Below are positions 52 to 1,530 of a stretch of DNA of 64,000 nucleotides, piece after piece. Made by a program: the position numbers and the translations under genes. The DNA lies in the NCBI GenBank assembly GCA_037576195.1, contig CM075101.1, positions 20,460,001-20,524,000 of the forward strand. The letters are read 5' to 3'. A model generated the notes under the pieces. It made no database searches, had not been told where the DNA came from, and saw nothing but the letters and a program-made list of their open reading frames with translations. Source of the DNA: Phytoseiulus persimilis (taxonomy: Eukaryota > Arthropoda > Arachnida > Mesostigmata > Phytoseiidae). The number at the start of each line of letters is the position of its first letter. Position 1 is the first letter of the stretch.

Positions 52-59
52 TCAATTAG
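52..59. repeat. Left target-site duplication TCAATTAG
   Basis: This 8-bp word directly abuts the left end of the hAT element and is repeated exactly at 1523-1530. Eight base pairs is the characteristic hAT duplication length. Confidence 0.88.
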
Positions 60-83
60 TGGAGACGCCATATGAGCGGACAT
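60..83 (+). repeat. Left terminal inverted repeat of hAT element
   Basis: Twenty-four bases that pair with 1499-1522 except at positions 2 and 4 from the outer end (TGGAG here versus TAGGG at the other end). The inner 20 bases are identical. The inner edge already contains the first CGGACA subterminal motif (77-82). Confidence 0.9.
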
Positions 84-135
84 GTCCTTGTCTGTCCGCT
101 TTGTCCGCTTTCTAGCTTTTCAGGGCAAATGTCCG
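77..135. promoter_or_regulatory. Left subterminal TGTCCG array of hAT element
   Basis: Four copies of the hexamer TGTCCG or its complement occur at 77-82 (-), 93-98 (+), 102-107 (+) and 130-135 (+). The first forms the 10-bp palindrome GGACATGTCC (78-87). Clustered short subterminal repeats are known transposase-binding sites in hAT elements such as Ac. By position and density these are the likely binding sites of this family's transposase; that function is inferred. Confidence 0.65.
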
Positions 136-649
136 TTTTCTTCGCGATCGACAGTAATCGTTGAGTTCGCAGGCACTTCCTGGGAAAGAGAGCGCTGTTC
201 CGAATCCCGGGGGGTGTTGATTCAGCCAGAGAGACATGTTAGCCGTTCGTCAACTGCGCTTCATAATATAAAGATAATATAATATTCCCGTAGCCAGGGA
301 CAAACTCTTATTCTTCCCTCCGGGACCTCGGATCAAATGGAGGGGTGTCGAGTTGACGGGTTGGATGCATCCTTAAGTAGATGTGAATGACCAGGACTCG
401 GTTAAGAAACTATGGGTTCTGGAAAGGGAGGCTTCATACATCTTCGACTTTGTGCTTCCTGTTGGGGAGCGAAATCATATGCCGTCGGGAGCTCTCGATC
501 TCGAGAAGATCTGGTAATGAAATGATGATTCCGCGGAAACGAGGAGAAGAACGCTCACTCGAAAATCTGTGCGAAATCAAATCTCTATGTTTGGAAACTC
601 ATTGCTTGGTTCGCCAGGTTCTCACCTCTGATCATTGCTCCCCCCTTAG

Positions 650-1201
650 CCGGAAAGCATCGACTCCAACTGTAATTCACCTGAATTCACATGCTCTACA
701 CATGTGTTGCGCCTGCTCTGCGAGACGGTTCGTGACCATTAGTAGATCTTACCGAGCATTTATCGGGCACGGGCTGCTGCCCCACGCGCCACCAACTGCG
801 CGTCTGGGAATCCCTCAATGCTGCCTCCCTTCATTTTAAGAATCTCGAGAGAGTCAAGATCTTCGTGTCTCGTTTCAGAGGCATAGCGGCCGAAATATTG
901 ACCTTATGGACTCTTGCTCAAGATGCAGAGCTCCAAAATCGATTCGAAGCAGTTTCGGTAATTTTTGAGTTCCTGGAATCCATCTTACTTTCGATCAAGA
1001 GCCAAATGAGGGCAGACCTCCCCGCCTGATTGGAGCAAATTTTCTCGAATAGCCCCGATTCCACTTGACTCTCGACTCTTCCGTCATGCACTCTGCCGCA
1101 ATGCCGGAATCGAGAGATTTTTTTCTCCGTTGAAAAACATCCCCACGGATAATCTGACCTCCTCGTCAGATCAGCTTGATGCGAAAGAACATCGTCCGTG
1201 A
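650..1201 (+). pseudogene. hAT transposase relic, frame-broken
   Basis: Three reading-frame segments in order resemble the C-terminal half of hAT transposases (RNase H-fold DDE enzymes with a C-terminal hATC dimerisation domain). Segment 1 (650-742) has CSTHVLRLL (692-718), resembling the family's C-x-x-H-x-L-N-L motif. After a shift, segment 2 (736-1029, about 97 codons) begins near CCPTRHQLRVWESLNA (775-822), resembling the CPTRWNSTY motif, and runs on as a helical stretch to a TGA at 1027. Segment 3 (1007-1201, shifted again) has NAGIERFFSPLKNI (1100-1141) and a downstream LDA (1175-1183), matching the hATC signature SNA..ER.FS..K and its conserved LDA. At least two frameshifts separate the segments. 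I could not identify the BED zinc finger or the first catalytic aspartates in 136-650. The homology call rests on motif order and spacing seen by eye. Confidence 0.72.
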
Positions 1202-1430
1202 AGAGATTCTCGCTTCACGGTGTCTCTGTCGCCTGAACGGAAGTCAAATATGCTGTTTCCGTGTCGACAACTTGAAACAATGGAGAATATTCATCGATCT
1301 CTCCATCAGCAGCTCTGTCTGTATGACGACGGAATCGGCCTGCTTCCATGCATATATGACTGCTCGAAATCCCAGCTAATAAAACTCATCTTGTACTGAA
1401 AGGGCATGCTCAAATCGCGAAAATAACGGA

Positions 1431-1505
1431 TGTCCGCTTCCAATGTCCGTTTCTGCCTCGGATGTCCGCCGGACACGTGTCCGCTTTTTGCGGAAAAAAT
1501 GTCCG
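1431..1505. promoter_or_regulatory. Right subterminal TGTCCG array of hAT element
   Basis: Six copies of TGTCCG or its complement occur at 1431-1436, 1444-1449, 1463-1468, 1470-1475 (-), 1478-1483 and 1500-1505. The third and fourth face each other across one base, and the fourth and fifth form the 12-bp palindrome GGACACGTGTCC (1471-1482). The motif is the same as at the left end, but the arrangement is denser and asymmetric, as is common for hAT ends. Confidence 0.65.
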
Positions 1506-1522
1506 CTCATATGGCGTCCCTA
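1499..1522 (-). repeat. Right terminal inverted repeat of hAT element
   Basis: Inverted partner of 60-83. The outermost bases read TAGGG inward, the canonical hAT start, so this end is probably closer to the ancestral terminus than the left one. Confidence 0.9.
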
Positions 1523-1530
1523 TCAATTAG
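1523..1530. repeat. Right target-site duplication TCAATTAG
   Basis: Exact copy of 52-59, directly adjacent to the right terminal inverted repeat. Together they fix the element boundaries at 60 and 1522. Confidence 0.88.

Follow-up and report, generated by a model that had tools for sequence, protein, structure and literature searches.

The stretch of DNA analysed here, referred to as the window, comprises 64,000 nucleotides of the Phytoseiulus persimilis genome (GCA_037576195.1, contig CM075101.1, positions 20,460,001 to 20,524,000 of the forward strand). Close to its beginning lies a 1463-bp element at window positions 60–1522, directly flanked on both sides by octamer duplications. The following features were located in and around this element; the relative mentioned in the list is a 2599-bp copy of the same family, described below.

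52..59, no strand: left target-site duplication TCAATTAG, identical to 1523–1530 at 8/8 positions
60..83, plus strand: left terminal inverted repeat (TIR), 24 bp, 22/24 against the right end; family comparison
77..135, no strand: left subterminal TGTCCG cluster, with sites at 77 (minus), 93 (plus), 102 (plus) and 130 (plus); motif scan
84..687, plus strand: 5' part, with homology to the stretch that precedes the ATG of the relative's transposase frame; blastn
685..690, no strand: approximate internal-deletion site; blastn blocks and tblastn
689..1150, plus strand: decayed C-terminal transposase remnant with stops and frame changes; tblastn, E = 3e-30
1431..1505, no strand: right subterminal TGTCCG cluster, with sites at 1431, 1444, 1463, 1470 (minus), 1478 and 1500; motif scan
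1499..1522, minus strand: right TIR, minus-strand reading TAGGGACGCCATATGAGCGGACAT, 22/24 against the left end; family comparison
1523..1530, no strand: right target-site duplication TCAATTAG, identical to 52–59 at 8/8 positions

A previous sequence-only reading had described a complete hAT insertion with 24-bp ends, an 8-bp duplication and base-exact boundaries at 52–1530. This observation was real, as the 8/8 octamers and the 22/24 ends confirm, and the window element is a complete hAT copy with base-exact ends. The span given holds for the element together with its duplications, whereas the element proper occupies 60–1522. Between the two TIRs of the window copy (60–83 and 1499–1522), 22 of 24 positions match, and positions 5–24 are identical, exactly as had been stated for the inner 20 bp. 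The left tip of the window copy is TGGAG, while TAGAG is found in 23 of the 30 family copies compared, a TG start occurring otherwise only in C1:9027738. At position 4, the right end has G in 27/30 copies, so that the A/G mismatch between the two ends is a feature of the family. Scanning the 64-kb window for inverted 24-bp ends (at least 17/24 matching, with an exact 10-base seed, 60–5000 bp apart) accompanied by an octamer duplicated at 7/8 or better returned this element as the sole pair. A Pfam search of 10 of the 46 listed open frames of the window gave no match.

Family of related copies in the host genome

The genome searched comprised 181 Mb in 127 contigs (the four largest among those viewed being 54.7, 52.0, 38.9 and 28.1 Mb), and at least 56 places or pieces in it match the window element, with 40 of 159 candidates scored. 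With up to three mismatches allowed, the 20-bp TIR core was matched 137 times in forward and 136 times in reverse orientation (0 and 5 for the reversed-pattern control). The core of a sister subfamily, characterized by GACC, gave 117 and 112 matches with up to two mismatches (control 0 and 0), counts that overlap with those of the GAGC-type core. Among the 16 fetched copies of this sister subfamily (L080–L095), 14 were 654–760 bp long and two were 872 and 900 bp; in 12 of them, the duplication agreed at 7/8 or more.

Both ends were compared in 30 copies of the window family. This set consists of 29 listed pairs, minus two rows starting at C2:13099719 that represent a 697-bp element with other ends, plus three added copies (C3:34418081, C3:37485487 and C2:4440661). 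The left end was moved in two copies, by 1 bp in C3:5168786 (for the duplication) and by 2 bp in C3:20054665; C3:20982594, whose right end lies outside the sequence at hand, was excluded, and the fragments among the 56 matches are not counted. A duplication of 7/8 or 8/8 was observed in 29/30 copies, C1:9027738 with 5/8 being the exception, and the 22 perfect duplications represented 22 different octamers. Thus, the genome search with the ends that had been proposed as a check yielded many copies whose perfect duplications all differ, which establishes a family. The TIR pairs matched at 20–24 of 24 positions in 28/30 copies and at 18 in one; the remaining copy, which carries a 2-bp deletion, scored 10/24 in ungapped comparison. 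Twenty-two copies were 1.2–1.54 kb long, and the other eight were longer (1.9–4.6 kb), several of them through inserts. A text search of the literature with four short TIR strings, a scope that leaves Repbase and Dfam aside, gave matches in 30 papers, of which the eight listed appear unrelated by title.

Internal deletion and the likely source of transposase

The 2599-bp relative at C3:34418081-34420679 has TIRs that are identical to each other (24/24) and match each window end at 23/24 positions. Its duplication, GTCATCCC, is perfect (8/8), and it has an open frame that spans 468 aa when counted from ATG and 572 aa from stop to stop. Positions 3–628 of the window element align with it at 73.6% identity (blastn); the listed open frame 387–836 overlaps this 5' part (84–687) of the window element. 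At element position 628, position 1947 of the relative joins position 1200, with approximately 746 bp of the relative missing from the window copy (blastn), and transposase codons 1–242 are deleted (tblastn). The remnant that follows covers residues 243–259, 281–412 and 402–441 of the 468-aa transposase in broken frames (tblastn, E = 3e-30). Because codons 1–242 are missing and the C-terminal remnant is broken, the window copy is, to judge from its sequence, a non-autonomous deletion derivative that lacks a functional gene.

The window copy most likely moved in trans. Mobilisation in trans, one of the options raised in the sequence-only reading, fits the coexistence of an open-frame relative with matching ends and a broken gene in the window copy. 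The family may actually be mobilised by another copy, since the interior of the 2599-bp relative is 20–29% diverged from the short copies. A search with the 468-aa query gave 93 matching places in the genome, the closest other transposase copy (L071) being 88–91% identical and frame-broken. No ends of the window family were recognisable around L071 in the 3.9 kb fetched, which slightly lowers the confidence in a non-autonomous hAT copy as the explanation. The next copies were 54–58% identical. One of these, L069, is a 2060-bp element with related ends (TAGAGCTCCCATATG...), a perfect duplication (GTCATCAT, 8/8) and a frame broken near its start, and L072 resembles it, with a length of 2049 bp and flanks that agree at 6/8. 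At L070, transposase relatives of 58% identity lie near a GACC end, for which no matching right end was found in the stretch inspected; at L073, also a transposase relative, the stretch fetched contained no ends of the window family.

Assignment to the hAT superfamily

The consensus of hAT tips is YAGRG. The family resembles hAT elements (Ac/hobo/Hermes, Buster and Tip) in its 8-bp duplications, its short TIRs with a tip of this type and its subterminal repeats at both ends, as well as in the BED-like finger of its transposase and in a target compatible with nTnnnnAn. Its 24-bp TIRs fall within the short range of 10–25 bp reported for hAT elements (PMC3942097).

Eight transposases were aligned, the seven others being 26–51% identical to the first, and the motifs ET.D, TD (219–220), TRWGT and V.R..S were invariant among them. 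DUF659 (Pfam) was matched by all eight (best 2.2e-14) and the hAT dimerisation model PF05699 by three (best E 0.057); the 468-aa protein alone remained below the Pfam cut-offs for both (19.2 bits vs 34.7 for DUF659 and 13.3 vs 21.4 for hAT dimerisation). D155 and the E of VER are kept in 7/8 proteins and D220 in 8/8, and we take these three to be the catalytic residues; in L079, Y replaces D at the first acidic site and the E of VER is replaced by G. Of the putative BED-like finger, C30, H51 and H57 are invariant and the second C is present in 7/8, while the Pfam BED model was absent among the matches of the eight transposases. Compared by profile with a hAT protein of this genome that is Pfam-positive, the landmarks D, D, C..H and TRW lined up in order, at a low probability of 1.4% and an E-value of 0.037. 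No match was obtained in a search of solved structures (PDB) with the 468-aa protein, and its profile gave 27 chance-level PDB matches (best E 0.1), none of them named a transposase.

Anatomy and homology to DUF659 are the basis of the hAT assignment, which is strong by anatomy and, on the sequences compared, by far the best reading. The exact boundaries, the multi-copy family with different 8-bp flanks and the transposase-bearing relative all support what had been proposed from the window alone. The P, Merlin and Zisupton-like superfamilies produce 8-bp duplications too, so duplications of this length are by themselves no proof of hAT, and the Pfam hAT dimerisation score lies below its cut-off. 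It is nevertheless improbable that the family belongs to another such cut-and-paste superfamily and merely resembles hAT, given a transposase that lies between matching ends and shows a BED-like finger together with TRW and VERSFS motifs, DUF659 homology in 8/8 relatives, and TAGRG tips and a T2/A7 target that fit hAT. Within hAT, the compact 468-aa frame with its DUF659-type core differs from the Hermes transposase, for which 612 aa are reported (PMC10368747).

Subterminal motif and target choice

Counted from the ends of the element, the TGTCCG sites of the window copy lie at 18 (minus), 34, 43 and 71 on the left and at −92, −79, −60, −53 (minus), −45 and −23 on the right; those of the 2599-bp relative lie at 18 (minus), 30, 43 and 71 and at −79, −60, −53 (minus), −45 and −23. 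Three of the four left positions therefore recur, the second being shifted by 4 bp, and five right sites recur, the one at window position 1431 missing in the relative. Some short copies have fewer sites, C1:1592000 retaining only 18 (minus) and 71 on the left. The subterminal TGTCCG arrays noted from the window alone were borne out in the 30 copies, where the density reached 19 and 34 per kb over the outer 150 bp on the two sides, counting the site within the TIR itself, against 0.19 per kb in the middles; the background in window 1601–64000 was 0.67 per kb. The BED domain of Hermes is reported to bind subterminal repeats, with AAG(T/C) as the motif instead of the TGTCCG observed here (PMC10368747). 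By analogy, the family transposase is predicted to bind the TGTCCG repeats via its finger.

The left octamers of the 29 copies with a duplication of at least 7/8 contained A4 in 28/29, T5 in 29/29, T2 in 22/29, A7 in 21/29, C3 in 16/29 and G6 in 11/29. For C1:4510422 and C2:4440661, the octamers were taken in the orientation of the genome; C1:4510422 is actually reversed, which would change T2 to 21/29 and A7 to 22/29, with A4 and T5 unaffected. In the sister subfamily (n = 12, the four of 16 copies with a duplication below 7/8 being omitted), A4 and T5 were found in 12/12, T2 and A7 in 9/12, C3 in 10/12 and G6 in 7/12. With both subfamilies pooled, A4 was present in 40/41 and T5 in 41/41 targets, while AT accounts for 5.2% of the dinucleotides in the window. 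The target thus has a firm AT centre, with preferences for T2, C3 and A7 and a weak one for G6. The window octamer TCAATTAG has the AT centre and A7 and departs from the pattern at T2 and C3.

Buster-group elements have the target nnnTAnnn, and their TA centre is absent from the family and sister targets, in which the centre is AT. For Hermes and hobo, the pattern nTnnnnAn is reported (PMC10368747, PMC8961557); the family and its sister agree with this Ac-group target at T2 (22/29 and 9/12) and A7 (21/29 and 9/12) and have the AT centre in addition. A separate hAT lineage could be envisaged, rather doubtfully, in which a compact DUF659-type transposase would go together with a nearly palindromic target, nTCATnAn, whose AT centre is fixed; this target would differ from the described Ac and Buster patterns and be common to at least two end sets (GAGC and GACC) and perhaps to a third (CTCCC, one clean element).

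Composite and nested loci

The 4638-bp family copy L061 (C3:20955277-20959914) has the same end type and a perfect duplication (ATTATGAG, 8/8), and contains frames of 626 and 178 aa with PF14291 (DUF4371) and PF05699 (hAT dimerisation). On these grounds, it might be taken for the autonomous partner whose DUF4371/hAT-dimerisation protein moves the family, a role that is most improbable. The three closest other copies of its gene (L062–L064) have the central block in common, and in all of them it ends at one right border, where the inverse of CAGTGGCGTAGCG is read. Around them no family end occurs within four mismatches (a single 6-mismatch match lies in L063), nor did the window element find a match in these regions at E 0.001. 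L061 was rejected as an autonomous source, the comparison with L062–L064 indicating a different hAT nested inside it; the block reads as a second hAT whose left end would have been lost together with part of the host copy. Cross-mobilisation of the family by an L061-type protein is possible.

Further composite structures were seen. The fragment at L068, a dimerisation match near a TIR, looks by inspection like the nested gene of the L061 type. The 4439-bp family copy C3:37485487-37489925 (L022 and L065) contains a nested insert of about 2.9 kb with ends TAGGGTAAGCGTACCAGTT and a 399-aa frame, presumably pogo-like by its motifs. At C2:13099719-13101859 (L014), nothing but the octamer CTGATGAC lies between the 697-bp element, which has TGGAGCTCCC ends, and a 1436-bp family copy; the octamer occurs there three times, as if the second element had hit the duplication of the first. 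Arrays of a repeat of about 45 bp are common to the inserts of two family copies (C2:5481586-5484337 and C2:4440661-4443955) and recur at L019, at L073 and in the left flank of C3:8777528, which may point to a satellite that family elements acquired or that spread along with them. C1:1841289, C2:35759055 and C3:20982594 (2237 bp each) have an extra 695-bp insert at the same place, as compared by length only. The different perfect duplications of C1:1841289 and C2:35759055 suggest that a copy bearing an insert moved again.

Age and mode of spread

Among 22 aligned copies, the nearest to the window copy is C4:4995210-4996672, which has the same length and differs at 15/1463 positions (K2P 0.010); another pair differs at 3/1435 positions, and the nearest-neighbour distances of other copies reach 0.097. 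This range of distances suggests that the family has been mobile over a long time, rather recent moves included. The identity of the inner TIR bases, which had been read as a sign of limited age, is weak evidence. When the 2599-bp relative was compared with two short copies, the TIRs were 92–100% identical while the subterminal 126 bp were 82–86% and the interiors 71–80% identical, so identical inner TIR bases do not date the insertion, and the sibling copy with 15/1463 differences is the better evidence of age.

The joined flanks of the window element, searched as an empty site in the host genome, matched only their own two flanks. A flank-spanning match for C2:13100424 is not counted: it runs 22 bp past the junction and starts in a neighbouring related element. 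Flanks are shared between some loci, C3:8777528 and the C2:26573339 locus having 258 bp in common (100%) and C3:34334731 and the C3:33817530 locus 250 bp (96%). As the means by which the copies spread, in place of transposition, segmental duplication can practically be dismissed: the 22 perfect duplications are 22 different octamers, and the window flanks have no match elsewhere in the genome.

Discussion

The window element can with high confidence be regarded as a non-autonomous hAT transposon copy, a deletion derivative most likely mobilised by transposase made elsewhere. The exact boundaries, the varied flanks and a relative that combines matching ends with a transposase frame fit both hAT and mobilisation in trans. 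In the proposed course of events, about 750 bp would have disappeared from the transposase gene of an autonomous relative, codons 1–242 included, and with them the zinc finger and the first two of the presumed catalytic acidic residues. The shortened form would have kept both ends, and transposase made elsewhere would copy it around the genome. A transposase of the 468-aa type would bind the subterminal TGTCCG sites via its N-terminal C-x2-C...H-x5-H (BED-like) finger, cut at the TAGRG tips and join the element to a staggered target of 8 bp that is centred on AT and preferably reads nTCATnAn, the octamer being left duplicated.

Close parallels are families such as the short copies of BuT2 and mar of Drosophila, which are internal deletion derivatives that keep their ends, TIR and TSD, and are reported as non-autonomous, hAT-derived and thought to spread in trans (PMC3942097, PMC3517528). 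The present family differs in host and sequence, in its greater length (1.2–1.54 kb in 22/30 copies) and in the recognisable transposase remnant of the window copy.

The element is thus of an ordinary, known kind, for which the family, the deletion origin, the likely type of helper and the target preference are documented; beyond target choice, the result amounts to routine annotation. What it provides, within one genome, is a hAT family with clean boundaries and deletion derivatives, together with a map of its subterminal motif and of its preferred target. A sister subfamily whose ends differ has the same AT-centred target, and this makes target choice by hAT elements amenable to testing.
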